Positions 4,744-19,048 of a stretch of 32,191 nucleotides of DNA are shown here, piece after piece. Both the position numbers and the translations under genes were made by a program. Origin of the DNA: Helicobacteraceae bacterium (GTDB taxonomy: Bacteria > Campylobacterota > Campylobacteria > Campylobacterales > SZUA-545); NCBI GenBank assembly GCA_031286325.1, contig JAITUT010000015.1, positions 1 to 32,191 of the forward strand, read 5' to 3'. The notes under the pieces were generated by a model. The model was not told where the DNA came from. It did not search any database and saw nothing but the letters and a program-made list of their open reading frames with translations. How positions within the stretch are numbered: position 1 is the first letter of the stretch; each line of letters starts with the position of its first letter.

Positions 4744-5357
4744 TTCGCCTCTTGTTTTATTTCGCAAATTCGCGTAAATTCACGCGCGGTTTTTTCTACA
4801 TCTAGAGCTTCCCAAAGCGCGGTGATTACGGCGATCAAATTCGCTCCTTCGCGCGCGAGCGGTTCAGCGTTTTCTAATGTAATCCCGCCGATCGCGCACT
4901 TTGGAATTTTGAAATTTTCGGCGAAAATTTTATGATCTTTCAAAACTGGCGCGTTGGGTTTGGTTCGCGATCTAAAACACGCGCCGAAAGAAACATAACT
5001 CGCGCCGTGTTTTTCGGCGAATTTCGCGCGATCTAAATCGTCGTAACACGAAACGCCTATGATCGCGTTATCGCCCAAAATTTCGCGCGCTTTTCGCAAA
5101 CTTTCATCGCCGCCGCCAATATGCGCTCCGCAATTTAATTTACGCGCTAAATCTACGCGATCGTTTATCACAAATTCCGCATTATATTTCGCGCACAAAT
5201 CGCGCAATTTTTCCGCGATCGAAAGCAAATCGCGATCGCTTAAATTTTTCTCGCGCAGCTGGTAAATTTTCGCGCCGCCCTTTAAGGCTTTTTCGGCGAT
5301 AATCGGTGAAATGTTCGCGCCGCCGATCGCGTATAAGGAATTAAGTATGTTTTTCAA
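4740..5357 (-). CDS. thiE: Thiamine-phosphate synthase ThiE
   Basis: ThiE joins the hydroxymethylpyrimidine diphosphate and thiazole phosphate moieties to form thiamine phosphate in the cytoplasm. The 205-residue length is normal. Family motifs are present: YQLREKNLSDRDLL, FVINDRVDLARK, a GAHIGGGDE loop that replaces the usual G-V-H-L-G-Q-x-D, IIGVSCYD (normally I-I-G-x-S), and CAIGGITLENA near the C-terminus. The best start is TTG at 5357 with AAGG about 8 nt upstream; no ATG lies nearby in frame. The stop overlaps the metH start as ATGA. The gene begins immediately beside the palindromic repeat block at 5360-5643, so its promoter must lie in or beyond that block or be embedded in it. Confidence 0.94.
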   Translation of the reverse strand: MKNILNSLYAIGGANISPIIAEKALKGGAKIYQLREKNLSDRDLLSIAEKLRDLCAKYNAEFVINDRVDLARKLNCGAHIGGGDESLRKAREILGDNAIIGVSCYDDLDRAKFAEKHGASYVSFGACFRSRTKPNAPVLKDHKIFAENFKIPKCAIGGITLENAEPLAREGANLIAVITALWEALDVEKTAREFTRICEIKQEAK

Positions 5358-5359
5358 AG

Positions 5360-5643
5360 ACGAGCCTTATTGCCGCCGCAAAGCGCGGCGAATTTGCGTG
5401 CGACGACGCTTGCGGCGTTACTGCGTAGGTTTCCAAACAGACGGCGTTTAAGAGCTACGAAACCCAAGCTAAAGCCTTATGTTCCCGTTGCGCTCGCGGT
5501 AGCGAAAAGGAGCGCAAGCGAAGTTGAGCGGTAGCGAGTAGCGCAACGGGCGCAAATTGCCCAGCAGGGCTGAACGGCAATTTGCGAGGTTTCCAAAGGC
5601 AAAGCCTTTGGTCGCAAGCGGGAACTTTGCTCCCGCGAGAAGT
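5360..5643. repeat. Host palindromic repeat mosaic with four consecutive hairpins
   Basis: This non-coding block lies between thiE and the prophage. The first part (about 5362-5435) matches the repeat inside the MATE gene at 18219-18293 (GCCTTATT, CCGCCGC, AAGCGCGGC, TTGCGGCGTTACTGCG). Then come four inverted repeats in a row: 5484-5494 with 5540-5550 (11 bp, perfect), 5551-5561 with 5576-5586 (11 bp, perfect), 5593-5600 with 5604-5611 (8 bp, 3-nt loop), and 5618-5623 with 5631-5636 (6 bp). The last two hairpins recur at 17115-17163 and 18323-18372. It looks like a dispersed repetitive extragenic palindrome or a structured transcript. Its function is unknown. Confidence 0.75.
5623..5643 (+). 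repeat. Candidate attL: 21-bp direct repeat at the left prophage boundary
   Basis: The 21 bp here are identical to 17084-17104 at the other end of the AT-rich phage block. They start AACTTTGC and end GAGAAGT. Base composition switches from host-like to AT-rich directly after this copy. A second shared word, GCTGAACGGC, occurs at 5569-5578 and 17042-17051. Because both copies belong to a host repeat family, the identity could be independent of integration. No tRNA gene is visible at the site. Confidence 0.42.
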
Positions 5644-5706
5644 TTTTGAAAGGAAAGTCTGTAGAAGTATCTGCCTAACGAAGGCTCTCTATATGGGCAT
5701 TTGTCG

Positions 5707-5726
5707 TGGTATAAATCTGGTATAAA
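5707..5726 (+). promoter_or_regulatory. Paired TGGTATAAA motifs at the left prophage end
   Basis: Two identical 9-bp words TGGTATAAA lie at 5707-5715 and 5718-5726, 11 bp or one helical turn apart, inside the phage end. This spacing suits binding of a protein to one face of the DNA, for example integrase arm sites or a repressor. The function is an inference from spacing only. Confidence 0.25.
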
Positions 5727-5770
5727 CACCCTAAACCCCTTCTGGACTGTTATCATACCAAATTATAGGT

Positions 5771-5776
5771 TATAAT
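5771..5776 (+). promoter_or_regulatory. Possible -10 element for the rightward phage gene series
   Basis: A TATAAT hexamer in very AT-rich DNA lies 76 bp upstream of the first phage gene. No convincing -35 box is seen. The gene itself has a strong AGGAGGG ribosome-binding site at about 5839-5845. This would be the only obvious promoter for the whole rightward set. Confidence 0.35.
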
Positions 5777-5851
5777 TTGTTAACTACTATGTGTATGAAT
5801 TATGAGAGTTATTAAATTTGGTAGTTAGAAAAGGATATAGGAGGGCGAGAA

Positions 5852-6844
5852 ATGGCTCTAAATTTTAGTAGTATGACCACAGCACGACTTTTAGACTTAA
5901 TATATGCTTGGTATGTAGAACAAATTCCACCATATAAAACTGTAAATACAGGGTCAACCTTAAAACCAATTTTGGTGGAAGTAGCGCGAACCGAATCTGA
6001 CTATAGACTAACAGCGTTAGATATTCTTGCAAGTCTAACTGCTATAACAGACTTTCCATATATAATTGGTGTCGGCGAATCAACAGTAGAACAGATGAAA
6101 ACTATCGCTGTGTCTTTGGGTATCTCTCATTCATCTTTATCCATTACTAGTGGAACTCATATCACAAATCAAATTGTAAGTCAGTTCAAAGCTTTAGAAA
6201 CAATAATAAATAATAAAGTGAGTGAATTACAGACAACAGCAGATATATTACACATTGCTTATCCCTCTAAGATTGACCCGTCTGACTTAAAAGCGTTAGT
6301 GGATAATCGTCAGATGATAGACATTTGGGATATAGAAGAACAAATGCTTGAGTATTTAAGACTTGAGGAGTTACAAGCTCTCATTATTGGTTTGGAGATG
6401 AAACCCCTCTCAGGTGAGAGTTTATCGTCTTTAGTGTCTAGAATAAACGGAATGATTGTCAAATTAAAAATAGACGCGAATGAACTTGATATTACTATAC
6501 CTTCTATTATTAAACCAATGTGGTTCAAAAAATCAATAGATGACGAACGAAACCGATTAGCCGCAGTTGAAGCGGAGAGAATAAGATTAGAGGAATTAAA
6601 AGATAGAGCGGACGAACTAGGACTAACATATCCACCAGACATTACAGCGGTAGAGTTGGAAGCTATGATTGCGGCTGAGGAAAAGAGACTAGCGGAATTG
6701 AATAATGGCGGTAACGGCAATAGCGGTGGAACAGATAAGCCCGATCCAGACCCTACAATACGAACTGGCGTATGTCATTACTACGGCAATGGTCTTAATT
6801 CTACTAGCGGTGTTAACAACAATATATTCGGATATGGAGGCTAA
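5852..6844 (+). CDS. Phage protein of unknown function with HeH/SAP-like repeats and a glycine-asparagine-rich tail
   Basis: This 330-residue protein has a strong ribosome-binding site (AGGAGGG, 6 nt before ATG). I recognise no enzyme. Three degenerate motifs of the form hydrophobic-x-I-x-(Y/I)-P-x-x-I-x-x-x-x-(L/F) recur near residues 131-148 (IAYPSKIDPSDLKALV), 214-231 (ITIPSIIKPMWFKKSI) and 260-278 (LTYPPDITAVELEAMI). They resemble the short helix-extended-helix (HeH/LEM/SAP-like) fold used by some phage proteins. The last two are linked by a charged helix rich in E, R and A. The C-terminus (about 283-330) is Gly/Asn/Asp-rich and ends in NNNIFGYGG. It has no signal peptide or TM segment. 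Its place directly before the lysis genes could suggest a role in lysis, head decoration or tail structure, but no catalytic motif supports an endolysin. Confidence 0.8.
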   Translation: MALNFSSMTTARLLDLIYAWYVEQIPPYKTVNTGSTLKPILVEVARTESDYRLTALDILASLTAITDFPYIIGVGESTVEQMKTIAVSLGISHSSLSITSGTHITNQIVSQFKALETIINNKVSELQTTADILHIAYPSKIDPSDLKALVDNRQMIDIWDIEEQMLEYLRLEELQALIIGLEMKPLSGESLSSLVSRINGMIVKLKIDANELDITIPSIIKPMWFKKSIDDERNRLAAVEAERIRLEELKDRADELGLTYPPDITAVELEAMIAAEEKRLAELNNGGNGNSGGTDKPDPDPTIRTGVCHYYGNGLNSTSGVNNNIFGYGG

Positions 6845-6925
6845 ATGATTGTGATAGAGGCTTTAATTCAGTTTATAGCAATAGTGGCTCTATTGAAGAT
6901 ATTAGCAATTATACAGGGTGTATAA
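6845..6925 (+). CDS. Very small hydrophobic peptide (26 residues)
   Basis: The ATG follows the previous stop directly (TAA then ATG). The 26 residues, MIVIEALIQFIAIVALLKIL and then AIIQGV, form a single membrane-spanning segment. It lies just upstream of the XhlA-like holin gene, so a role as a small lysis or antiholin-like peptide is possible. No ribosome-binding site of its own is clear, so it would depend on coupling to the upstream gene. It may instead be a chance frame. Confidence 0.35.
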   Translation: MIVIEALIQFIAIVALLKILAIIQGV

Positions 6926-6942
6926 ATAGACAGGGGGTTAAA

Positions 6943-7308
6943 ATGGAAACAAAGACTAAAACACCAGAAGAACGATTGGAGATACTTGAAGATAGACAAG
7001 ATATTGTAATCCAAGATATTATAAGGATAAAGGCTGACATAAACAGCATAGAGTATAAGTTAAACTCAATGAATACGGCTATTACAAATGGTTTTAATAA
7101 TATAAGAGTAGAGATGAAAGAGATGACTAAGGCTATGTCTGATATGAAGGATAGGATAGACCATAAAATGTATGAGTTGGATAAAACCTATTCCGTATCG
7201 TATTCCGTTTTAGCTACAAAAGTGTTCTTTGGCGTATCAATCTTAGGGACTATCGGCTCTGCTCTTGTAGCTTGGCTAGTATCTACATTCACGAAAGGCG
7301 TCCATTAA
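6943..7308 (+). CDS. XhlA-like hemolysin/holin family protein
   Basis: This 121-residue protein has an N-terminal coiled coil (about residues 8-80, with regular I/L/M spacing in DIIRIKADINSIEYKLNSM and following) and one membrane segment near the C-terminus (about 88-112, TKVFFGVSILGTIGSALVAW). This is the architecture of the XhlA family, small membrane proteins that work with a holin and endolysin in phage lysis cassettes. AGGGGG lies a few bases before the ATG. It is followed within 2 nt by a second membrane protein and then by overlapping spanin-like genes, which supports a lysis role at the inner membrane. The call rests on architecture and context rather than on a long conserved motif. 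Confidence 0.65.
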   Translation: METKTKTPEERLEILEDRQDIVIQDIIRIKADINSIEYKLNSMNTAITNGFNNIRVEMKEMTKAMSDMKDRIDHKMYELDKTYSVSYSVLATKVFFGVSILGTIGSALVAWLVSTFTKGVH

Positions 7309-7310
7309 CA

Positions 7311-7610
7311 ATGAAAGAGTTTTTCAAACAACTTATTATCGCTAATTCAGGCAAGTCCTCAACAAGGTTTATCAATCTCGTAGGGTCGTTTCTGTTAGGG
7401 TTTGTAATACTTCTAATGCAAGGGTTTATCTGCTATTTAATCATAGACAGGAGCAATCTAGACTACCTTAAGACAGCCTTAGAGTATCAGGCGTATTTTT
7501 ATTCAATATTCGCGGCAACAACGGTAGGCGGTTACTCGCTCAACAAGTTCTTTACCTCTAGACACCCCGCTAAAGTGGTGGAGAAGGGTTTGCAATGTTC
7601 GAGCAGATAA
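7311..7610 (+). CDS. Two-TM membrane protein, candidate holin
   Basis: The product is 99 residues if the ATG at 7311, two bases after the previous stop, is used. A start 13 codons upstream would overlap the XhlA-like gene. Two hydrophobic segments, about residues 22-46 (FINLVGSFLLGFVILLMQGF) and 65-84, are separated by a short polar stretch (IDRSNLDYLK). The ends are basic or polar. This is the size and topology of a class II holin or a phage membrane partner protein. The C-terminal 16 nt overlap the next gene. No family motif is decisive. Confidence 0.55.
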   Translation: MKEFFKQLIIANSGKSSTRFINLVGSFLLGFVILLMQGFICYLIIDRSNLDYLKTALEYQAYFYSIFAATTVGGYSLNKFFTSRHPAKVVEKGLQCSSR

Positions 7611-7957
7611 TTAGAGCTTCCATTGTTGTATCCTTGCTTGTCATCGCTATACTCTGCTGTTATATCGCCCATTTAACTAATGTCAATAGCGAATTGGAGA
7701 ACGAGCTTAAAGTATGTCAGAATAATTTGGCTATGGAGCGATCGTTAAATAGCAAATTACTTAAAGAAAGAGACGATGAAACCAACGAATGTATCTCAAA
7801 ATTACAAAAAGAGAATGAAAAGGTATTGCAAGCTCAGGAAATTATCGCTAGAATTAACGCGAAAAACGTCATTAAATTAGGTGATACGAAATGCAATGTG
7901 TCATTAAGCGAGGATAACTATATTTTAGGAAAATTAAATGAGCGGAACACTCGCTAA
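7595..7957 (+). CDS. Rz-like inner-membrane spanin
   Basis: This 120-residue protein has an N-terminal signal-anchor (about residues 7-27, ASIVVSLLVIAILCCYIAHL) followed by a periplasmic alpha-helical coiled-coil region (about 30-90, SELENELKVCQNNLAMERSL and following) that is rich in N, E, K and L. This is the i-spanin layout. AAGGG lies 8 nt before the ATG. The end of the gene overlaps the following lipoprotein gene by 20 nt, typical of Rz/Rz1 pairs, which fuse inner and outer membranes at the last stage of lysis. A C-terminal segment (GDTKCNVSLSEDNYIL) may pair with the partner. The call is by architecture. Confidence 0.6.
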   Translation: MFEQIIRASIVVSLLVIAILCCYIAHLTNVNSELENELKVCQNNLAMERSLNSKLLKERDDETNECISKLQKENEKVLQAQEIIARINAKNVIKLGDTKCNVSLSEDNYILGKLNERNTR

Positions 7958-8210
7958 AACTCTAAAAATTATGGGTATAGTAACTCTCATAGCAGTTTAT
8001 CTCCTTACTGCTGTCGGGTGTTCCGCTCCAAGCCCTAACTATGTGTATATTGACAAGAATTGCACAAAGTTTGACGAAGCTATAAAGGTAGAATGGAAAC
8101 CAGTAAGATGGGTAGTAATTCACACAGAGGGTATATCGTATTACGCTACGCCAGACGGAGAGACTTTACTAATGAACTTAGCTGTTATGAGAGGCAAGAA
8201 TGGACAATAA
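7938..8210 (+). CDS. Rz1-like outer-membrane lipoprotein spanin
   Basis: This 90-residue protein has a lipoprotein signal peptide: basic start, hydrophobic core (IMGIVTLIAVYLLT) and a lipobox AVGC with the cysteine at residue 28. The mature part (about 62 residues) has a Pro/Ser-containing start (SAPSPNY) and then a short charged domain. The 5' end is nested in the i-spanin gene and the 3' end overlaps the portal gene by 11 nt. It would be the outer-membrane half of the spanin complex. The lipobox -3 residue is Ala rather than Leu, which is tolerated but not ideal. Confidence 0.55.
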   Translation: MSGTLAKTLKIMGIVTLIAVYLLTAVGCSAPSPNYVYIDKNCTKFDEAIKVEWKPVRWVVIHTEGISYYATPDGETLLMNLAVMRGKNGQ

Positions 8211-10563
8211 ACCAAAAAAAATGACAAAAGAGTCTATATTAGCTATAGCGAAAGCCGACCTAACATCAACACAAACTCTTAGGAAAGAGCACGATACTTC
8301 TTTGAAGCAATACAGAGACGAGTATTACGGAAAGTTGTATGGGAACGAACACCCCCACAAATCTAAAATAATATCAAAGGACATACGCAGACAATCTGAA
8401 TGGCAAATTCCTAGTTTGGTTGATCCATTTGTCTCCACTTCCGACATATTTAAGATTGCTCCCGTTGGTAAAGACGATAGAAATGCCGCAAGACAAAAGG
8501 AGATACTGTTAAACACACAATTCTGTAGACAATTCAACAGGTTTAATTTCCTCACTACCGCTATAAAAATCGCCGATATAGAAGGCAGCGTAATAGTTCA
8601 GTTGGGGTGGGATTACCAAGAAAACTCTAAACGATTTACGAGATATGAGTTTATACTAGAAGATAACTCGCGAGTCAGCGTAGAGAGATACCAAGCCTTA
8701 CTCAATCAGAGCAAGCGAGAAGCCGAGATGATGGCTAACGAGATAGAACTAACTATGTTTAGAGAACGACAACAATTACAAGCACAGTTTCAACAGACAA
8801 CGCAACAAGCCCAACAACTACAAGCGCAAATGCGACAAGCCCAACAAGAGGGTAACGAAGAAGCTCTACAACAGCTGTCCCAGCAAGCTCAACAAATTGA
8901 ACAGGGCTTACAAGAAATGCAACAAGAACTACAACAACCAGTAGTTAAACCCGACAACTTCAATATGCCTATGCCTTTGGCGTTAGTAAGACAAGAAATA
9001 GAAGAAATAGAGGTATTAGTCAATAAACCAACAGCGAAAGTATGTAGGAATGAAGATGTGTTTATAGACCCTACTTGTCAAGGCGATTTAGATAAAGCCC
9101 AGTTTGTAATCAACAGGTATGAGACTGATTTATCCTCTTTGAGGTTGGACGGAAGATTTACTAACCTTGACAAAGTGGAAGAAGATTTAACCGATAGCAG
9201 TAACGACCCAGACGGATTTGAGACGCCAGACCACACGCATTTTAAGTTCTCAGATAAGACGCGCAAGAAAGTAGTAGTGTATGAATATTGGGGGAATATA
9301 GATTGGAATGGCGATAAAATTGCCGAACCGATAGTATGCGCTTGGGTAGGAGATGTAGTAATCAGGTTGCAGAATAACCCATACCCCGACAAAAAACACC
9401 CATTTATCCTATGTAAGTTCATAGAAACCCCTTTTAAGGTGTATGGCGAAGGCTCTGGCTCTTTAATAAGCGATGAGCAGAAGGTTAAAACCGCTTTGAA
9501 GCGAGCGTTAATCAATTATATTGCGGCTGGGACAGAGGGACAGATGGGTATTAAACAAGGAGCGTTAAGCCCAGATAATGAGAAGAAGTTCCTTCGTGGT
9601 GATAACTTCTCGTTTAACGGTAGCTCAAACGAGATATTCTTTTTTGGAAACTTCAATCAAATACCGCCGTCAGTATGGAACTTCTATAGTTTAATCACTA
9701 ACGAGATAGAGGCTATATCTGGGGTTAAATCGTTCGCTGAATCTGGCATATCAGGAAAAGGTTTAGGCTCTACGGCGACAGGAGCTAGAGGAGCATTGGA
9801 CGCTACAGCGTTAAGAAGGCTGCATTTGGTAAGAAACATCAGCGAAAATCTTGTTAAACCAATAGGTAGAAAGTGGTTGGTGTATAGCGCGGAGTTCTTA
9901 GACGATACGACTTTTATTCGTTATACGGACGAGGAAGTAATAGCGGTAACAAAAGATATGTTATCGGGCGAGTATGACATAGACATAGCCGTATCAACAG
10001 CCGAAGATAACGCTATGAGAGCGCAGGATTTATCGTTTATGTTGCAGACGACAGGTAATTCGCTACCGTTTGACTTCACTCAAATAATTCTAGCGGACAT
10101 AGCGAAACTATATAAAATGCCCGATTTGGCTAATAAAATAATGACATATACGCCTAAACCCGATCCAATGCAACAGAAGTTGCAAGAAACTCAACTCGCG
10201 TTACTTGAAGCTCAAGTAAGGAACGAACAAGCAAAAGGAGCGGAGAATGAAATAGATGTGAGCCTCAAACAAGCGAAAGCTGAGAAAGAGGCGGCAATGG
10301 CTAGGAAAATTGGCTCTGAAAGCAACCTACTTGACGATGAGTATTTAACTAAACAGATGGGAGAGACTATTGACCCTCTCAAAGTCCAAGAAATGCAGAA
10401 TAAGTATGACATAGAACAGGCGAAAGTCTTAAACGATATGAATTTCAAGCAAGAAAAGATGGATAGAGACGATCGTCAGAGAGAACTTGATAGAGAGGTT
10501 AAAGCGAGCGATACCTACTTAAAGCACAGACTAGAGGCGTTAAAACAGCATAAAGGATTGTAA
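8200..10563 (+). CDS. Phage portal protein (podovirus type)
   Basis: The portal is the dodecameric ring at one vertex of the head through which DNA enters and leaves. The 787-residue length and the order of conserved blocks fit large podovirus/P22-like portals: an N-terminal block with EWQIPSLVDPFVSTSDIFKI (about residues 68-87), a core with YEYWGNIDWNGD, HPFILCKFIETPFKVYGEGS (about 404-423), then NEIEAISGVKSFAESGISGK (about 503-522) and GARGALDATALRRLHLVRNI. The C-terminal 120 residues form a long charged helix, the expected barrel region. An unusual Gln-rich coiled-coil insert spans about 187-247. It starts 11 nt inside the o-spanin gene. Base use matches the other phage genes. Confidence 0.85.
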   Translation: MDNKPKKMTKESILAIAKADLTSTQTLRKEHDTSLKQYRDEYYGKLYGNEHPHKSKIISKDIRRQSEWQIPSLVDPFVSTSDIFKIAPVGKDDRNAARQKEILLNTQFCRQFNRFNFLTTAIKIADIEGSVIVQLGWDYQENSKRFTRYEFILEDNSRVSVERYQALLNQSKREAEMMANEIELTMFRERQQLQAQFQQTTQQAQQLQAQMRQAQQEGNEEALQQLSQQAQQIEQGLQEMQQELQQPVVKPDNFNMPMPLALVRQEIEEIEVLVNKPTAKVCRNEDVFIDPTCQGDLDKAQFVINRYETDLSSLRLDGRFTNLDKVEEDLTDSSNDPDGFETPDHTHFKFSDKTRKKVVVYEYWGNIDWNGDKIAEPIVCAWVGDVVIRLQNNPYPDKKHPFILCKFIETPFKVYGEGSGSLISDEQKVKTALKRALINYIAAGTEGQMGIKQGALSPDNEKKFLRGDNFSFNGSSNEIFFFGNFNQIPPSVWNFYSLITNEIEAISGVKSFAESGISGKGLGSTATGARGALDATALRRLHLVRNISENLVKPIGRKWLVYSAEFLDDTTFIRYTDEEVIAVTKDMLSGEYDIDIAVSTAEDNAMRAQDLSFMLQTTGNSLPFDFTQIILADIAKLYKMPDLANKIMTYTPKPDPMQQKLQETQLALLEAQVRNEQAKGAENEIDVSLKQAKAEKEAAMARKIGSESNLLDDEYLTKQMGETIDPLKVQEMQNKYDIEQAKVLNDMNFKQEKMDRDDRQRELDREVKASDTYLKHRLEALKQHKGL

Positions 10564-10667
10564 TGGATTTGAGTTGTATAGAAGACGATGTGATTAGGAA
10601 AGAGTATGAGAGGAACATTAAATTGGGAGAGGCTCTCAATAATTTGAAAGATAATTATCAGACCTAA
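10563..10667 (+). CDS. Small ORF of 34 residues between portal and terminase fragment
   Basis: The ATG overlaps the portal stop (TAATG), giving MDLSCIEDDVIRKEYERNIK and then 14 more residues, a charged helical peptide. It may be a genuine small phage protein or the fused remnant of a deleted neighbour, because the next frame is a terminase scrap lacking its own start. I recognise no family. Confidence 0.35.
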   Translation: MDLSCIEDDVIRKEYERNIKLGEALNNLKDNYQT

Positions 10668-10977
10668 TACCAATAAAATGGTGAGGTTTAGCGGGGTAGT
10701 TCCGTTGTTCAAGCAGCAGAAGATATTCTTCCCAACAGAGTTTAAGGATATGCCAATGATGAAAGAAGCTATAAACGAGATTTCATTCGCCACAGCTTCA
10801 GGCTTTAAGTCTAAGCACGATGATTTCATAGACACTATATCAATGTTGCAGTTTATTGAGGCTTGGAAACCGTATCCCGTTAAAGAAGAACCTATTCAAC
10901 AAAGTGATTATAATTATTACTTCGGGGACGATTTAGAGACAAGAAGGTTAGAAGAAAGAAAATCTACTGTGTTTTAA
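10648..10977 (+). pseudogene. Large terminase subunit, C-terminal nuclease-domain fragment
   Basis: The frame has clear similarity to the end of phage large terminases: KMVRFSGVVPLFKQQKIFFP, then a ...EI.FATASGFKSKHDDFIDTI segment that carries the conserved D-D-x-x-D of the RNase H-like nuclease domain. Similarity reaches upstream of the first ATG (10678) to a stop at 10645-10647, and no ribosome-binding site precedes that ATG. The ATPase domain, several hundred residues in a full terminase, is absent everywhere in the window. This is therefore a 5'-truncated gene, most likely left by a deletion that joined the region after the portal to the end of terminase. A short, separately translated nuclease domain is possible but less likely. 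Confidence 0.75.
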
Positions 10978-10990
10978 GTTAAGGACGACA

Positions 10991-12085
10991 ATGAAGCTAA
11001 AATATCTACTTGATATACTCAGAGCGGGAGAGTTAAAAAACTACTCAGATTCCGATCACGCCCAAAGCGATAAGATAGTATCCCAGCATATAAATTTAGG
11101 TCTTATAGAACTCGCTAAACGTTTTCAATTTTGGTATAAACAGGTGATTATAGACGCATCAGACGGAGAGATATTTTATAAGTTACCGAAAGATTTTCTA
11201 AATTTAGTATCAGTATTTAACTCTGATGGAAAACCAGTAGGAATAAACGAGGAAGGTTGGATTAACTCTGTGTTCCTCACATCTAAAAACATACTACAAG
11301 TTCCGTTCGCTACTGAGTTTATATCTGTTGTTTATAGAGCCTCTCCTCAAATTAGAGAAGAACATTGGACTGAAGATAGAGAAGAACTACACTTGATAAA
11401 CGCTAATTGGTTAGATGAACAGAGATTAGCTACTGGAGACCTTACGAGAACATTTGATTTTCCGAATATGAGTGTCAATATAGCTGCGGCTTCTTCTTAT
11501 TGGACAACCAATCTGGTAGTAAATGGTGTATCATATATGGATATAGATATTGGCGCCAGTTTTACCACAGACGAATCGCGTAGTCGTAAAATGCTTATAT
11601 CTGTATATGGTGATGGGGTTATTCTACCTATAGAGTATGAAAGTAAGGGTTATATAGCCGATTACTCCGCTAAGCGCGTGGATATTTCTTCGTTATTTCG
11701 TAACGATTCTGACGAAATATCAGTCATTAGGCTTGAAAGTGTTGATGGTGAGGGTTTTACTAGTTCAGATGGCTCAGATAGACCTACGATTAGCTGTAAG
11801 TTTTACAATATAGAAAACATAATAGAAGTAGGCGAATTAAACTGCGAGGTGATGATCCCTGACGCTCTTATAGAACCTCTTGGAGCGTATGTGGCTTGGA
11901 GAGCGAGTATGGCTAATATGGCTGTAGTTCCTAACGATAGTAAAACAATGTTTCAGTTCTTTGAGCAGACTTGTCAGAGGGTTAAAATGGATACCAGCGT
12001 TACCTCAGAAGGGTTGTGCTCGCATAGATTGTTCGCTGTTAAGAGAAAAGGTTATGACACACCTGTAAATTGGGAGGAATACTAA
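10991..12085 (+). CDS. Head-tail adaptor (connector) protein with an inserted domain
   Basis: The two ends look like a podovirus head-to-tail adaptor, the ring docked under the portal. The N-terminal part is helical (LINLGLIELAKRF-type segment, about 33-46), then DGEIFYKLPKDFLNLVSVF (about 58-76) and FISVVYRASP (about 110-119). The C-terminal part is MIPDALIEPLGAYVAWRASM (about 288-307). In simple adaptors these blocks lie close together. Here about 160 residues (126-286), rich in beta-type sequence (VSYMDIDIGASF, RKMLISVYGDGVILPIEY), separate them. An insertion exposed on the connector, perhaps immunoglobulin- or carbohydrate-binding-like, is inferred. It lies 13 nt after the terminase fragment and shares TAATG with the next gene. 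Confidence 0.65.
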   Translation: MKLKYLLDILRAGELKNYSDSDHAQSDKIVSQHINLGLIELAKRFQFWYKQVIIDASDGEIFYKLPKDFLNLVSVFNSDGKPVGINEEGWINSVFLTSKNILQVPFATEFISVVYRASPQIREEHWTEDREELHLINANWLDEQRLATGDLTRTFDFPNMSVNIAAASSYWTTNLVVNGVSYMDIDIGASFTTDESRSRKMLISVYGDGVILPIEYESKGYIADYSAKRVDISSLFRNDSDEISVIRLESVDGEGFTSSDGSDRPTISCKFYNIENIIEVGELNCEVMIPDALIEPLGAYVAWRASMANMAVVPNDSKTMFQFFEQTCQRVKMDTSVTSEGLCSHRLFAVKRKGYDTPVNWEEY

Positions 12086-12933
12086 TGAGTATGATGAATG
12101 TAACGAACGTCTTTCACGGCAGGAATAAAGAGAAGTGGGATATTTTAGAGCAAGTAGCGAAATTAAGCGGTAAACTTGAAGGTTTTACAGACGAGCAACT
12201 TAAAGCGTTTTTAGAGGGTTTGAGCAATATCGTTAAAGCTGGCGGTATCTTGAAGCAATTAGAGAACTTTGAGATATTTGTAGAGCATTTAGAGGACGGA
12301 GAACACCCATTTAGCAGAATGGACGGCAATAAACTTATTATTGGTATTCCAGCAGGTAGAGACGGTAAGGACGGCGAGAACGCTTTACCTATAGGGTTAA
12401 GGCTCGTGTATGACTCAAACACGGGGGACTTATACTATAAGAATGTATATACCGAGATTGATATAGACGATACTATAGAATTAAATACTAGGTCTAGAGT
12501 TGATTCTTTGGAGGCTTGTTGCGCCGAAGGCAAGGTGAAACTCGCTGATTTAGACGCGAAAGACGAAGAACACGAAGAAACACTAACAAACATCTTAGAA
12601 GCGTTAAATAGCCATAATGAATTGCTAGAGCTTCATAATCAGAAACTTGAACAACACACTAGAGAGCTGAACAATCAACAACGAAGGTTACGAGAGCATA
12701 GAGCAGAGCTGAAATCGCATAAAAACGCGCTGGATAATTACCAAACGACATTAAGCGAACACGAGGAGAGACTAAGCGATACTCAACTTGTCTTGAACGG
12801 TCATCAAGAAGGGTTAGATAACCATACAACAGAACTAAGCGGCATACAACTTACGCTGAATGAGTATCAAGACAAGATTGTCGCGTTGGAGACGCAGCTA
12901 GCGGAAGTCATAGAAAGATTAAACGAGGTGTAA
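12085..12933 (+). CDS. Phage coiled-coil structural protein with a collagen-like Gly-X-Y stretch
   Basis: The ATG at 12085 overlaps the adaptor stop, with GGGAGG just upstream, giving 282 residues. The N-terminal part is helical. A short collagen-like run GRDGKDGENA occurs at about 92-101. The C-terminal half (about 158-280) is one long coiled coil built of imperfect 14-residue units, seen as recurring H-N-x-x-L, H-x-x-x-L and L-x-x-H-x-x-x-L spacing. It is rich in H, N, Q, E and L. Such proteins form trimeric shafts or linkers of tail fibres. It lies directly before the large tail-fibre gene, so a proximal-fibre or hinge role is inferred. No enzymatic motif is present. Confidence 0.7.
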   Translation: MSMMNVTNVFHGRNKEKWDILEQVAKLSGKLEGFTDEQLKAFLEGLSNIVKAGGILKQLENFEIFVEHLEDGEHPFSRMDGNKLIIGIPAGRDGKDGENALPIGLRLVYDSNTGDLYYKNVYTEIDIDDTIELNTRSRVDSLEACCAEGKVKLADLDAKDEEHEETLTNILEALNSHNELLELHNQKLEQHTRELNNQQRRLREHRAELKSHKNALDNYQTTLSEHEERLSDTQLVLNGHQEGLDNHTTELSGIQLTLNEYQDKIVALETQLAEVIERLNEV

Positions 12934-12934
12934 T

Positions 12935-15913
12935 ATGGCAGATTTGAAATTTGTAACTAATTTGGCGGGTATAGTCAGGGCTTGTCTTGAGAGATATATG
13001 GTAGAGCAGTTCCCTAAATTCAAAGAGGAGACTCAGGAGAAAATTCTAAAGTATATGGAAGATAATAAAGAGAACTTCCGTTCTCGCGTCAAAGGCGACA
13101 AAGGAGATGACGGTCTTAATATCAAAACTATTAAGTGGATTAGCACTACCGATCCGTTAAACAGACAAGCAGTATCAGGCTATACAGATACTTACTCAGT
13201 CATCGCCGCTGATGATTCTGTTCTTGGGAATATCAAAATCCACAACGGTAAAGACACTCTCGTAGATGATAACGGTCAGGTGCATATCAATAACTCTACT
13301 GAAATTCAAGGGAATTTTCTGTTGAAGGGACTGTGGGCTTTCTTAGAGGTTGAGGAGTTCTCATTATCTACTCAATGGGTGAATTTGAATATGTATAAAG
13401 AGGAGAAACCGTTTGAGGGTGGTATCCGCTTCAATACAGACGCTAATGGCGATGAGTTCTTCGCAAGACTTACATATAAACAGGCAACCGACAGCTGGTA
13501 TATCACAAAAGACGGTCAAGACGTTCTTATAATGTGCGGCGGGTTGGATACTTACAATGAAAACGGCTTCGTAGTAGTTGACAAAGACAATAGAGAGTTA
13601 TCAAGACTACAAGGGCAAGGTATAGCCTATCAAGACAAACGAGACGACACAACTAAAGCTATTGACGATACCAATAATCAAAGCAAGTTTCTAACAGCGG
13701 GAGATACTCCAGACGCTATTCCACAGTTCAGAAACCTACGGAAAGCAGAAGTCTTTACAGCGTTGGACGTTACTACGATTGTAGAAGAAGCGGAGATTAT
13801 TAGCGAGGACAAAACTCTTAAAACTCGCGTATTACACAGCGATAAAGAGGGAACTCACACAGAGACTATTACTCAAATTCCTTTGGCTAAGAGCGGTTCT
13901 TTCAACGGCGATGGGTATGAAGGAGACACAGACGGATTATTGAGCAAGGAGAGAAGCAGACAGATAGATGTTATGCAGAGCGAACTTAATGTAGTGAAAA
14001 GATTGCCTAAACGCTATCCTGTTAGGATTGGATTGCCTCCTGACGGTGGATTTACACAAGAACAATTGAATGGTTTCTATCAAGAGCTTGTTGATACTGG
14101 TAAAGCTCCAGAGACTATCGCTGATGGAACTGTATTAGACAACATTGACGAGGAAGAAGGCGGTTCGTTTGGCGTAGAGTATATGTATTACGCGACAGTA
14201 GACCAATGGATAAACAGAGGTATCTCCACTATCACATTGCCTACTGAGACTGCTCTTGGAGGAGTATTCACTTCTAACGAGTATCTTAAGGGCGAGTGTT
14301 CAGCAGGAGTTATATCTATCAACGGGCTGTCTGATAAGTTGGATAGTATTGACGAAAAGAACGATGAGCAAGACCAGAAGATAACTGATATTGAGGCTAA
14401 TATAGACGAGATTGAGGACAATGTAAGCGGCTTGACTGATAGGATTGATGTTGTGGAGAATACTATAACCACTATAGGAGGCAACATTACTAATTTTGTT
14501 CCAGCTCTTGTAGTTGACAAAGACAATCCTAATAACCGCAGTTATATTTATAATTCAGCACAAATGGCATTTCTCAATAATGAAACCGAACGCCCGTCCC
14601 ATACCTCAAACTCAGCCGTAGTTGCGGCGCCCAGTTCCGTCTTTCTTGCCTACTATCTTAGTGGTATTGACGGTGAGAGGTCTAATATGGTTACAGTAGA
14701 CGGCTATAAAACACGCTTCAACATTTATCATAAAGAAGATGGCGTAGTTACAGAGAGATACTGCACAATAGGAACAACCTACGGCGAATCAAACGATATT
14801 GTAACTAAGAGAGAACTAGACGCAGCAATAATGGGAGTCTCTCAAGGTATTGACGGTAGTAGCGGTAGCGGCACCACTGATTATGGGCAACTAACCAATA
14901 AGCCTAGTATAAATGGTGAAGAACTAGTTGGCGATAAGAGCTCTGACGAACTTAATCTTGTTCAGAGCGATATTAGATACGGACACGAGTTAAATGGGAG
15001 TTTTAACGGCACAGTAAGTAGTATTTCTAGACACTTACAAGGGACGACTATTAGCGCAAGTAAAACAATTAATGGGACTGAAACGTCAAGTTCGCTATTT
15101 GTATATAAGGAGGCGATACAGATTTTCACTAAATATAGAGTTTCTGATTCTAATGACGACCAAAACTTAAGCAGAAATTACATTTTTAGTCCTAGCTTTG
15201 GTAGTAATGACGATGTAACTACAAAGAAAGATGTTGATGGAATGATAACCGAAGGTGTTAGGTCGGCAGTTCAAGAGGCATTACAGACTGCTGGATATGT
15301 TCCAACAGGACTGGTCGCTCCAAGCGGGGTTGATCAAGACGGTTATTATCCGACTACTATGATAGTTCACGACCAAAACAGTAGCATAGGAGTTAAAACA
15401 GGAAATATAAACCAATCAACGCCTGAAGCTACTATCCTTATGGAAGTATCACAGCCTCTCAAAGTTTTCTATACTGAAGATGATAACTCTCTTATTGAGT
15501 ATAAATTTGATGGTAAATGCGCGTTTGAGAAGCATAGTTGGGACGGTAATAGTTGGTTTAGCGGCGATAACAGCGTAGTTCAGGCAAAAGACCTAAATGA
15601 CGCCTATCAGAAGTGCGTAAAGAAAGATCACATACGCGGTAGTGAGGAATCAGGCAACTATTCTTACTATCACATCAGCCCATTAGGAGACGGTGGTGGT
15701 CTCGGTATTGAAACGGGTAGGTATTGGGACGATGGTGAGACTCATTTCAGTAGAGAGATGACGATAAGAGCAGGAAACGGTGATGACGACAACGGCTACA
15801 GATACGACAGCGACATACCTATTAAGAAAGACATAGATCAGATCGTAGCGGGGCTTAATCAGAGGATTGATACGTTAATGCAGATGATAGAGCAACTTCA
15901 GGCTAACCCATAA
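12935..15913 (+). CDS. Phage tail fibre protein
   Basis: This 992-residue modular protein starts 1 nt after the previous stop. It has a short N-terminal helical attachment region, a collagen-like KGDKGDDG at about 53-60, long repetitive beta-rich sections, a coiled coil at about 463-515 (LDSIDEKNDEQDQKITDIEA and following) and the tail-fibre signature YGQLTNKPSINGEELVGDKS at about 646-665. Three repeated modules close with a related motif: NDIVTKRELDAAI (about 620), NDDVTTKKDVDGMI (about 758) and DSDIPIKKDIDQIV (about 958). The C-terminus is a trimerising-type helix (LNQRIDTLMQMIEQLQANP). It should form the receptor-binding fibre. The 3' end overlaps the convergent integrase gene by 11 nt. 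Confidence 0.85.
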   Translation: MADLKFVTNLAGIVRACLERYMVEQFPKFKEETQEKILKYMEDNKENFRSRVKGDKGDDGLNIKTIKWISTTDPLNRQAVSGYTDTYSVIAADDSVLGNIKIHNGKDTLVDDNGQVHINNSTEIQGNFLLKGLWAFLEVEEFSLSTQWVNLNMYKEEKPFEGGIRFNTDANGDEFFARLTYKQATDSWYITKDGQDVLIMCGGLDTYNENGFVVVDKDNRELSRLQGQGIAYQDKRDDTTKAIDDTNNQSKFLTAGDTPDAIPQFRNLRKAEVFTALDVTTIVEEAEIISEDKTLKTRVLHSDKEGTHTETITQIPLAKSGSFNGDGYEGDTDGLLSKERSRQIDVMQSELNVVKRLPKRYPVRIGLPPDGGFTQEQLNGFYQELVDTGKAPETIADGTVLDNIDEEEGGSFGVEYMYYATVDQWINRGISTITLPTETALGGVFTSNEYLKGECSAGVISINGLSDKLDSIDEKNDEQDQKITDIEANIDEIEDNVSGLTDRIDVVENTITTIGGNITNFVPALVVDKDNPNNRSYIYNSAQMAFLNNETERPSHTSNSAVVAAPSSVFLAYYLSGIDGERSNMVTVDGYKTRFNIYHKEDGVVTERYCTIGTTYGESNDIVTKRELDAAIMGVSQGIDGSSGSGTTDYGQLTNKPSINGEELVGDKSSDELNLVQSDIRYGHELNGSFNGTVSSISRHLQGTTISASKTINGTETSSSLFVYKEAIQIFTKYRVSDSNDDQNLSRNYIFSPSFGSNDDVTTKKDVDGMITEGVRSAVQEALQTAGYVPTGLVAPSGVDQDGYYPTTMIVHDQNSSIGVKTGNINQSTPEATILMEVSQPLKVFYTEDDNSLIEYKFDGKCAFEKHSWDGNSWFSGDNSVVQAKDLNDAYQKCVKKDHIRGSEESGNYSYYHISPLGDGGGLGIETGRYWDDGETHFSREMTIRAGNGDDDNGYRYDSDIPIKKDIDQIVAGLNQRIDTLMQMIEQLQANP

Positions 15914-16994
15914 TCCCATTCAATAGCTCCGATACCGCGTTTCTCTTAATTTTACTCGCTGGTTTCACATACCTCTCTGTCATAGATAGAGAGGAGTGAT
16001 CCATTAACTCTTTTATTATAAAGGGAGACACTCCATTATTAGCCAAGTTACTACCGAATGAATGTCTTAGAGAATACGCTACTATCTTATTCTTTCTATC
16101 GTCCTTGTGTATGCCTCTTGGTATGTTGAATAGCGTATCAAGGCGCTTTTGTAGCTTTTTCGGTTGAGTGTTTCTGTCCTGTGGTTTATCCTTATTACCA
16201 ACTACATAATGGTATGGTTTTATATGTCTAATCATACTTATTAAGATTTCACAGACTTTATCGTCAAAGTAGGCATAGTATCCTCGTGATACCTTATGAT
16301 TTTGCAGTCTTATAGTCCTAGTTGCGAAGTCTATATCCATTGGTCTAATGGACAACACAGTCGCCACTCTAGCTCCTGTTGCAATGGACAGCAGGGTAAA
16401 CAGATATAAGTCATTGTTGTATCTCACAGTATTTAATAGTTCATTACACTCCTCTAAACTCAATACTCCTACTCTTTTATTGTCTATTTTTCTTTTCTTA
16501 ATATTTGCGAGAGGGTTCTTGTTAATTACTCCTTTTTTAATAGCATAGTTATAGACAGACTTTGCGAGCGTTATAATGTGATTTATGGTCGTGTTGGATA
16601 GTCTCTTTTCCTTTTCTCTTAATATCGTTTCTAGCATAGTTTCTGTGATACTGTGAGCGGGGTATTTAAGAAGCTTAGATAAGTGTTTAGACCTGTATAT
16701 ATCGTGTTTCACATCTTTTTTTGTATAGGCATAATCTAGATACGATTTAAGAATGTCGCTAAATAGTAGGGATTTCTTTAGTGTTGGTGTTTCACCGCGT
16801 CTGATTAGATGTAGTTTTTCATTTCTTAAGTCTCTACAATACGCTTCTCTTATACCTGATGAGTATGTTCCAACCCTTTCTAGCACTTGTTTCTTGCCTA
16901 TACGATATTTAATATAGTAGGTGGTCTCTCCGTCCTCTGATTTACGCTTATATACCCCAGCAACGCTGGTCTTGACTAGGTTTGTTGAACTCAT
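15903..16994 (-). CDS. Tyrosine recombinase (phage integrase)
   Basis: This 363-residue integrase catalyses site-specific integration and excision between attP and attB. Catalytic residues are visible: Arg in ATGARVATVLSIRPMDID (about 209), the box II segment AYSLRHSFGSNL (about 308-319, Tyr in place of the usual His before L-R), DHSSLSMTERYVKP with the second His (about 332) and the nucleophilic Tyr (about 341). The N-terminal third holds a SAM-like DNA-binding domain (DILKSYLDYAYTKKDV). It is transcribed opposite to all other phage genes, with its 5' end facing the right attachment region, the normal place for attP. The ATG at 16994 is 15 bp from a TATAAT. Confidence 0.93.
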   Translation of the reverse strand: MSSTNLVKTSVAGVYKRKSEDGETTYYIKYRIGKKQVLERVGTYSSGIREAYCRDLRNEKLHLIRRGETPTLKKSLLFSDILKSYLDYAYTKKDVKHDIYRSKHLSKLLKYPAHSITETMLETILREKEKRLSNTTINHIITLAKSVYNYAIKKGVINKNPLANIKKRKIDNKRVGVLSLEECNELLNTVRYNNDLYLFTLLSIATGARVATVLSIRPMDIDFATRTIRLQNHKVSRGYYAYFDDKVCEILISMIRHIKPYHYVVGNKDKPQDRNTQPKKLQKRLDTLFNIPRGIHKDDRKNKIVAYSLRHSFGSNLANNGVSPFIIKELMDHSSLSMTERYVKPASKIKRNAVSELLNGIMG

Positions 16995-17008
16995 AGCGTT
17001 ATACCGCT

Positions 17009-17014
17009 ATTATA
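17009..17014 (-). promoter_or_regulatory. Candidate -10 element of the integrase promoter
   Basis: TATAAT on the minus strand ends 15 bp before the integrase ATG, flanked by small inverted repeats (TAGCG/CGCTA at about 16994-17009 and ACTAC/GTAGT at 17014-17028). The -35 region would fall in the hairpin at 17029-17051. A short or nearly leaderless transcript is implied. The inverted repeats could be operators. Confidence 0.4.
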
Positions 17015-17028
17015 CTACTATGAGTAGT

Positions 17029-17051
17029 GCCGTCCAGTTCTGCTGAACGGC
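17029..17051. repeat. Inverted repeat at the right prophage end
   Basis: GCCGTCCAG and CTGAACGGC form a 9-bp stem with one mismatch and a 5-nt loop. It sits exactly where AT-rich phage DNA gives way to host-like DNA. Part of it (GCTGAACGGC) is shared with 5569-5578 at the left end, so it may belong to the attachment region or to the host repeat family. Confidence 0.5.
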
Positions 17052-17083
17052 TTACAGGGGCAACGCCGCTTGCCGCAAGCAAA

Positions 17084-17104
17084 AACTTTGCTCCCGCGAG
17101 AAGT
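17084..17104 (+). repeat. Candidate attR: 21-bp direct repeat at the right prophage boundary
   Basis: Identical over 21 bp to 5623-5643. It lies about 90 bp from the integrase start, outside the phage gene block. The same caution applies as on the left: the sequence is part of a dispersed host repeat. Confidence 0.42.
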
Positions 17105-17114
17105 AATTAGCGAT

Positions 17115-17163
17115 CCAAAGGCAAAGCCTTTGGTCAAAGCGGCGGCTTTGCCGACGCGAGAAA
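17115..17163. repeat. Copy of the host double-hairpin repeat
   Basis: The 19-bp palindrome at 17115-17133 (8-bp stem CCAAAGGC/GCCTTTGG, AAA loop) is identical to 5593-5611. It is followed by a second palindrome, GCGGCGGCTTTGCCGACGC, and GAGAAAT, which matches the layout of the copies at 5612-5643 and 18344-18374. It lies just upstream of the HIT-protein gene. Confidence 0.75.
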
Positions 17164-17178
17164 TAAAAAAGGAATGTG

Positions 17179-17535
17179 ATGTTTTTCAAAGACGATCACC
17201 TATATTTCGAATGGCACGAGTCTGAAATTCCGTGGGTTAAAATTTTCACCCGCGAGCCGTTTCGCGAAATTAGCGATTGTAGCGAAAGCGCGCTAAACGC
17301 CCTGTGGCACTCGGCGATCGCGGTTGAGATCGCGATGCGCGAATTTTACGCGCCGAAAAAGATAAATATCGCGAGTTTCGGCAACCAATTAGAGCGCGTG
17401 CATATTCACATTCAAGCGCGTTTTGAGGACGATAGTTTTTATCCTGAATCAATGTGGGGCGTTAAACGGCGCGAGGGGGCGATCCGCGATCTCAAAAGAA
17501 AAGAATTTGAGCGATTTTTGATCGCTAGACTTTAA
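17179..17535 (+). CDS. HIT (histidine triad) family protein
   Basis: This 118-residue protein carries the histidine-triad signature FGNQLERVHIHIQARFEDD and then FYPESMWG. This is the proteobacterial subfamily whose consensus is G-N-x-x-x-x-L-H-x-H-x-x-x-R followed by a W-G-containing end. His75 and His77 are present, but the third triad position is Gln79, and the nucleophilic middle histidine is kept. HIT proteins are nucleotide hydrolases or transferases acting on AMP-linked substrates; the substrate here is unknown. The start is ATG at 17179 with AAGGA upstream. The gene overlaps the convergent MATE gene by 11 nt. Confidence 0.82.
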   Translation: MFFKDDHLYFEWHESEIPWVKIFTREPFREISDCSESALNALWHSAIAVEIAMREFYAPKKINIASFGNQLERVHIHIQARFEDDSFYPESMWGVKRREGAIRDLKRKEFERFLIARL

Positions 17536-19048
17536 TTTTTTTCCATTTGCCGCGTTTGAAAATTATCCACAGCCAGAGTCCGCGCAGGATTGTCTCAAAG
17601 AGCGTTACGAGCCAGATGAGCCAGATGTTTTCAAAGAGCAGGGCGAGGGCAAACGCCGGCAAAACGCGGAAAATCCACATTGAGAGAAAGTTGACGATAA
17701 GGCTCGTTTTGGTATCGCCCGCGCCGCGCAGAGCGCCGCTTAAAACGAAACTAATTCCCAGCGGGATTTGCGAAAATCCTACGCAGATTAAGTAGCCGCT
17801 CGCCGCGTCAATCGCCGCTAAATCGCGCGTGAAAATCGTCGCGAGCGGGGCGGCGAAAATCACCATAAACACGCCCGCGATTCCCATACAAACGCTCGCT
17901 AAAAACGCCGTGAAAAGCGCGTCTTTTTCCGCTTCGCTTGGGTTTCCTTCACCCAGCGCGCGCCCAGTAAGGCTCATCGCTGCGATCGTAAAGCCGATTC
18001 CGGGCATAAAGGCGATGCTTTCGACCCGCAAACCCACTTGATAACCCGCCATTACCTCCGTGCCGAAGTCGCTGATAATGCGCATAAACGCGAGAAACGA
18101 GCCGAATAATAAAAGCCTTTCGAGTCCAGCGGGAAAGCCGACCTTTAAGCCGCGTATGAGCAGGTCAAGATCAAAAAAAACGTTTCGGGCGCAAGAGGCG
18201 GCTTTGACGGCGCGAAAAGCCTTATTTCCGCCGCGAAGCGCGGCAAAATTTGCGCGCGGCGACGCAGTAGCCGCTTGCGGCGTTACTGCGGAGTTTAGCG
18301 CAGCGGCAAATTTCGTGGGTTTCCAAAGGGCGAGCCCTTTGGTCGTAGCGGCGGTTTTGACGGCGCGAGAAGTTAAAAGCGCGATCGGTCGCTTTTTAAT
18401 CAAAATAAAAAACAAATATCCAAGCGACTCCAAATAAAACGCGATCGCGGTCGCCGCCGCCGCGCCCGCCACGCCGAACGCCGCGATCCCAAGAGGCTCA
18501 AAACCAAAAATTAAAATATAACTCAAAACGACATTGATAATGTTGCAGTAAATTTTGATCACAAGCGGACGTTTGATGTCCGCCGCCGCCGAAAAGAGGC
18601 TAAACGCGATTTGGTTTAACATCATTGCTGGAAGCGCGAACGAGAGCGCGAAGAGGTATGAAGCGCCAAGTTCGGTTACGCGCAAGTCGCTCTCCATCAG
18701 CGCGAAAGGCGCGGCGGCGAACGCGCTCATAGCGGCAAACATTGGGACGCTTAAAATTAAAACGGCGATCGTGAAAGTCGTGAAAACCCGCGCCGCGTTT
18801 TCAGGCTCTTTCGCGCCGAAAAATCGGCTCATAAGAGCGTTTGAGCCGATGTAAAAAACGCCCATTAAAACATAAAAAAGCCCGGTAAATTGTAGCGCGA
18901 CCCCGATCGCGGCGGTAGCGGCGACCTCCAAAAACCCGACCATAATGAAGTCGATTAAGACTTGCGTCATATCCACAAACGCGCCTAGCGCGGCGGGGAG
19001 GGCGAGGGAAGTTACGCGGCTGGCGCGATCTTTACAAAAAAAGGGCAA
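17525..19048 (-). CDS. MATE family multidrug/sodium antiporter containing an in-frame repeat insertion
   Basis: This 507-residue protein has about twelve membrane segments and the two-fold layout of MATE exporters (VDMTQVLIDFIMVGFLEVAA near the start, FPAGLERLLLFGSF in the second half, SGALRGAGDTKTSL near the end). These export cationic drugs or metabolites using a sodium or proton gradient. The cytoplasmic loop between TM6 and TM7 is expanded by about 55 residues (about 226-284, low-complexity A/T/R/K-rich). This stretch is encoded exactly by the palindromic repeat at 18197-18372. The frame stays open, so the protein is probably made with the extra loop. No other defects are visible. It ends tail-to-tail with the HIT gene. 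Confidence 0.9.
   Translation of the reverse strand: MPFFCKDRASRVTSLALPAALGAFVDMTQVLIDFIMVGFLEVAATAAIGVALQFTGLFYVLMGVFYIGSNALMSRFFGAKEPENAARVFTTFTIAVLILSVPMFAAMSAFAAAPFALMESDLRVTELGASYLFALSFALPAMMLNQIAFSLFSAAADIKRPLVIKIYCNIINVVLSYILIFGFEPLGIAAFGVAGAAAATAIAFYLESLGYLFFILIKKRPIALLTSRAVKTAATTKGLALWKPTKFAAALNSAVTPQAATASPRANFAALRGGNKAFRAVKAASCARNVFFDLDLLIRGLKVGFPAGLERLLLFGSFLAFMRIISDFGTEVMAGYQVGLRVESIAFMPGIGFTIAAMSLTGRALGEGNPSEAEKDALFTAFLASVCMGIAGVFMVIFAAPLATIFTRDLAAIDAASGYLICVGFSQIPLGISFVLSGALRGAGDTKTSLIVNFLSMWIFRVLPAFALALLFENIWLIWLVTLFETILRGLWLWIIFKRGKWKKIKV
18197..18372. repeat. Palindromic repeat inserted in frame in the MATE gene
   Basis: Two 23-bp near-identical segments (21 of 23 match; GGCGG.TTTGACGGCGCGA.AAG) at 18197-18219 and 18350-18372 are 153 bp apart, exactly 51 codons. 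Between them lie a segment homologous to 5362-5435 (18219-18293) and the hairpin at 18323-18342 (9-bp stem CCAAAGGGC/GCCCTTTGG). The same units occur at 5360-5643 and 17115-17163. The spacing in a multiple of three explains why the coding frame survives. Confidence 0.8.

Follow-up and report, generated by a model that had tools for sequence, protein, structure and literature searches.

The MATE-family transporter gene described here very probably contains an in-frame copy of a short, mosaic hairpin repeat, non-autonomous and amplified in this lineage, whose in-frame copies would be survivors. The DNA examined (the window, 32,191 nucleotides) is contig C51 in a draft MAG that totals 2.05 Mb in 96 contigs and is 98% complete. 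The gene and its insert are located as follows.

17525-19048, minus strand: MATE-family transporter gene (507 aa, TTG start, frame open across the repeat; from the list of open reading frames).
18179-18370, minus strand: in-frame insert of 192 bp or 64 residues (approximately S227-F290 of 507 aa), delimited by alignment of MATE proteins and by pLDDT, with borders uncertain by a few codons.

The gene product is matched by Pfam MatE (PF01554) in two stretches (E = 7.7e-51). In MATE homologues the end of the first half (KKRPxxxLL) leads directly to the start of the second (FDxxLLxRG), whereas the protein of this genome carries 64 extra residues between them (example of the encoded peptide: FAAALNSAVTPQAATASPR). 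Orthologues came from six further genomes of the genus, from three species in a second genus of the family and from elsewhere in the order; one same-genus gene was truncated by a contig end, with the insert site still covered. This comparison was one of two tests set beforehand that could have refuted the original prediction, the other being the search for further genomic copies (below), and neither refuted it; no counterpart of the insert was found in any orthologue covering the site, at the level of genus, family or order. The loop is likewise absent from solved MATE structures, which align to residues 6-220 (best match NorM) and 295-502 (best match Aq128) and have about 14 residues between these stretches, against about 75 in the protein here.

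The structure predicted from 18 sequences had a mean pLDDT of 85 and a fold matching solved MATE structures. Over most of residues 228-289, which link two confidently predicted six-helix halves, pLDDT was below 50, and the insert is predicted to be a disordered segment on a confident fold. An addition to the cytoplasmic loop between the halves had been proposed; the location agrees, and the size, put at about 50 residues, is 64. Extra residues in the 499-aa MATE protein of another genus were considered as the same insert and rejected as a different, unrelated loop difference. In that protein (L061:4965-6461) the surplus amounts to about 39 residues, which lie mostly in two other loops and are unrelated to the hairpin repeat.

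The repeat was originally noticed as a pair of 23-bp segments (18197-18219 and 18350-18372), which indeed match at 21 of 23 positions, 153 bp apart, and the MATE frame runs through the whole stretch without a stop, as had been stated. The two segments were thought to bracket the unit. Both proved to be copies of hairpin 1, one forming the left end of the element and the other an extra partial copy past its right end. The single palindromic unit envisaged did not hold up: the element is a mosaic chain of about four hairpins, and a full copy is laid out as TTAAC-TTCTCGCG-H1-TTGCGA-H2-AAACC-H3-H4-TATAGGTTT. Two models were used for searching. Model R1 (hairpins 1 and 2, the core) was built from an alignment of 18 copies; model R2 was built from 16 copies, all outside genes, the in-gene copies being omitted to avoid circularity. 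The parts of the MATE copy are listed below.

About 18216-18372, minus strand, plus about 36 bp of an extra partial copy: element proper, with left end TTCTCGCG and right end AATAAGGCTTTT (comparison with genomic copies; BLAST).
18306-18376, minus strand: conserved core, comprising the flank TTAAC, hairpin 1, linker and hairpin 2 (R1, 84.6 bits; R2, 76.9 bits, E = 9e-16).
18343-18369, minus strand: hairpin 1 (H1), with a stem that is imperfect in the MATE copy and shows compensatory change across the family.
18323-18342, minus strand: hairpin 2, CCAAAGGGCTCGCCCTTTGG, a perfect stem (sequence, family covariation and fold).
18244-18315, minus strand: hairpin 3, CGAAATTTGC ... GCAAATTTTG, with a variable interior (sequence and fold).
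18228-18243, minus strand: hairpin 4, CCGCGCTTCGCGGCGG (sequence; position matches other copies).
18190-18219, minus strand: hairpin 1 again, as a second and partial copy that forms the right-hand member of the 23-bp pair (21/23 identical to 18350-18372).

Tandem partial copies also occur at other sites of the genome. Strong compensatory change is seen in both hairpin 1 and hairpin 2. In the alignment of 18 copies, which is sequence-based and not fitted to structure, 89% of the stem cells pair, against at most 57% when the partners are slid by one base, and double-sided changes occupy 34 cells versus 11.9 in shuffles. Among 98 distinct copies aligned to the model, an alignment that leans to structure, 221 such cells were counted versus 73.6 in shuffles. 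Stem sequences vary between copies, and the loop and linkers are kept. The structure claim rests on this covariation and not on energy, because the MATE copy alone folds no better than its shuffled versions (z about -1, insignificant). Some copies carry small extra hairpins nested in hairpin 1 (L186:8343-8450, L109:1056-1148 and L154, C28:43297-43387), which suggests that one hairpin module was inserted into another.

The presence of the unit in non-coding DNA of the window, also part of the original prediction, was borne out at four places.

5363-5431, minus strand: non-coding partial copy of the right-hand part (BLAST, 78% over 69 bp, E = 2.5e-12).
5577-5646, minus strand: non-coding copy of the core (R1, 81.4 bits; R2, 82.3 bits).
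17042-17107, minus strand: non-coding copy in tandem with the next (R1, 32.4 bits; R2, 32.0 bits).
17110-17167, minus strand: non-coding copy directly upstream of a HIT-domain gene (R1, 50.5 bits; R2, 48.5 bits).

A 17-bp direct repeat, ATGTTTTTCAAAGACGA, bounds an 11.8-kb stretch of the window (5347-17191), within which a tyrosine integrase is encoded (15903-16994, minus strand; PF00589). This stretch probably represents an element integrated at the 5' end of the HIT-domain gene (17176-17535), and hairpin repeats are located just inside both of its ends.

Throughout the 2.05 Mb genome, R1 gave at least 113 matches at E <= 0.01 and at least 131 at E <= 0.5, which provides the more than 110 other copies sought in the genome-wide check. 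A 394-kb sample chosen without regard to the repeat held about 22 matches near E <= 0.01, or about 115 per genome. The MATE copy ranks third-best of the 113 by score, and its BLAST matches to other genomic copies reach E = 7e-16, far beyond chance. R2, built from copies outside genes, recovered all four in-gene copies: those of MATE (at the score listed above), a permease (69.6 bits), a methylase/helicase (65.1 bits) and BioF (45.7 bits, E = 4e-8).

The six other genomes of the genus contain 0-2 copies each, and one species of another genus contains 10. Of 120 genomes of the order, nine gave one or more matches at E <= 0.001; three of these nine belong to a single genus of another family and have up to 14. 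The repeat has undergone lineage-specific amplification, and the sharp difference in copy number among congeners suggests that it spread recently. Phage records and viral contigs gave no match to the element. A 76-bp stretch 79% identical to it is present on a Campylobacter jejuni plasmid, between annotated genes.

Placement was determined relative to genes called by a simple codon-usage gene caller. Of the 113 copies, 106 (about 94%) are intergenic, five lie inside a called gene and two overlap one. The left end of the repeat clusters at gene borders, either adjoining a stop codon or shortly before a start codon. Among copies scoring more than 40 bits, 24 of the 41 with a gene start as left neighbour lie 8-20 bases from that start, and 11 of the 31 with a gene end in this position fall within -4 to +3, some of them supplying the stop codon.

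Four of the 113 copies are assigned to genes. Those in MATE and BioF were established through orthologues without the segment; the other two, in a CysT-like permease and a methylase/helicase, are considered probable. In BioF (C53:19666) the repeat lies in the opposite orientation and adds 40 residues before the GTLGKAFGS stretch. This segment has no counterpart in the aligned relatives, and the matches of the other listed relatives skip the same residues; it is predicted to be disordered, on a confidently predicted fold. A second full BioF was not found in the genome. The MATE copy is near the consensus and probably young; the BioF copy is eroded. The repeat is N-terminal in the permease (C44:47182), whose relatives begin further downstream, and translation of the repeat is uncertain because a later TTG start is possible. 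In the methylase/helicase frame (C55:60878; 2356 residues) the repeat stands between domains of a protein for which close relatives to compare are lacking. Two further short matches to repeat modules occur in this frame (L185:13388-13419 and L185:15530-15552) and may be chance or older inserts.

Other candidates were rejected. A 28-bit match in a U32 peptidase (C23:1406), one of the five copies inside called genes, was attributed to chance, the matched residues resembling ordinary conserved U32 sequence. N-terminal read-through frames (e.g. C33:27805, C45:13597 and C71:7955) were dismissed because an ATG start follows the element. BLAST of coding frames in the DNA stretches examined revealed no additional clear in-gene copy.

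As the genome is a draft MAG of 96 contigs and repeats are common breakpoints, an assembly artefact or chimera at the repeat was considered. It is extremely improbable: the two halves of MATE stand on either side of the repeat with order, orientation and frame preserved, those of BioF do likewise, and a chimera that restores one gene would not be expected twice. The insert might also have been selected as a useful new loop in MATE (and BioF), for example as a regulatory or binding segment. Its composition (11 K/R and zero acidic residues) fits a cytoplasmic loop and the reading frame is intact; this composition, however, stems from the repeat itself, the insert is predicted to be disordered, and unrelated proteins carry the repeat in both orientations and therefore share no common peptide. 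Selection for such a function is considered very unlikely.

The favoured explanation is the survival of in-frame copies of an amplified repeat. Copies pile up mainly between genes, by stop codons or just before start codons. A copy whose length is a multiple of three and which lands at a permissive surface site would leave a working gene with a disordered insert, while copies that shift the frame or fall at sensitive sites would presumably be lost. Movement by insertion is what we infer, since the comparison is with species of about 60-72% protein identity rather than with an empty site in the same species. The insert-bearing proteins are presumably made and working.

At least one of the six frames is open in 44 of 51 full copies, which follows from a repeat rich in G+C and poor in stops. 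The element has 1.47 stops per frame versus 1.79 in shuffles, a modest depletion, and in-frame survival is therefore largely a matter of composition. For the same reason insertion aimed in frame is not favoured; the in-frame copies would owe their presence to surviving selection.

The element has what characterizes a small dispersed hairpin repeat with in-frame copies, namely many copies, lineage-specific amplification and conserved pairing. Its behaviour resembles that of the Rickettsia palindromic elements (RPE), as had been suggested at the outset. RPE are 105-146 bp long, have terminal inverted repeats and were reported in 19 reading frames (Ogata et al. 2000, as reviewed in PMC2229807), and a guanylate kinase with an RPE insert was shown to be active (PMC2229807). 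Both are short hairpin repeats that occur intergenically as well as in frame within genes for conserved proteins, which tolerate them. That the element is a true RPE, acquired by horizontal transfer or by descent, is nevertheless highly improbable. No terminal inverted repeats were recognized by inspection (the ends, TTAACTTCTCGCG and TATAGGTTT, are non-complementary, the right one being less sharply defined than the left), several hairpins stand in series instead of one long stem, and searches outside Rickettsia found matching copies only in Campylobacterales. The two also differ in phylum and in the number of in-gene copies, here 4 of 113.

Other non-autonomous repeats are also comparable. 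RPE, ERIC, YPAL, RU-3 and the 107-bp NEMIS are described as having open frames, and in-frame fusions are on record (PMC2229807); the group of ERIC, YPAL/RU-2, RU-3 and the 107-bp NEMIS/Correia shares with the element open frames and, in several cases, in-frame fusions (PMC2229807). Most of these are described with terminal inverted repeats, target duplications or both, whereas neither was recognized here; inspection of the occupied MATE site alone showed no obvious target-site duplication. The lack of recognized terminal inverted repeats likewise distinguishes the element from MITEs. No Rfam family matches it.

Membership of the REP/REPIN family, with movement by a Y1 (RAYT) transposase, is unlikely, though less so than the other alternatives. 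REPs are units of 20-40 bp that bear a GTAG or CGTC tag and are associated with tyrosine (Y1) transposases; they are placed within 20 bp of gene ends, and in several species they also occur in genes, where clusters of them encode 43-82 residues (PMC3733652). Intergenic hairpins near gene ends, paired stems and occasional in-gene copies are thus common to both, and the other-genus genome that contains 10 copies encodes a Y1 transposase. The units of the element are longer, however, and neither tag is present at its conserved left end, where the profile over 77 copies reads TTAAC TTCTCGCG. Y1 transposase (PF01797) is absent from its own genome (draft, 98% complete), from the six congeners and from the other-family genomes with 1-14 related copies. 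As terminal repeats, tag and own Y1 transposase were all wanting, the element is assigned to the general kind only.

Related hairpin repeats of Campylobacterales (TTAACTTCGCAG-H1-TTTGCGAC-H2) agree with the element in left end, H1 loop, linker and H2 layout. Those of another Campylobacterales family (L229-L244), at 1-14 copies per genome, differ in the right-hand part. Among the related repeats checked, no copy is clearly in a gene. No transposase partner for the element was identified. Conceivably, the four-hairpin unit functions as a structured RNA or single-stranded DNA element that has undescribed machinery of its own, common to Campylobacterales, for mobility or processing, and its in-gene copies may be cut or skipped at the RNA level; we regard this as very unlikely, and retain in-frame survival of an amplified, non-autonomous repeat.

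The open-licence papers searched yielded no description of a comparable element in Campylobacterota. The REP surveys PMC3733652 and, from 2025, PMC12306157 had no Campylobacter passage that was found, and Helicobacter is mentioned only as a tabulated count. The phenomenon is not as exclusive as had been supposed, because in-frame repeats have been described in ERIC, NEMIS and YPAL (PMC2229807) and in REP (PMC3733652). A known but rarely seen phenomenon is thereby extended to a new bacterial group, and Campylobacterota joins the few bacteria whose proteins are described as having taken up small repeats. The genome offers a natural system for the origin of protein segments, since it combines a probably young copy in MATE with an eroded one in BioF, and sister species supply orthologues free of the insert.
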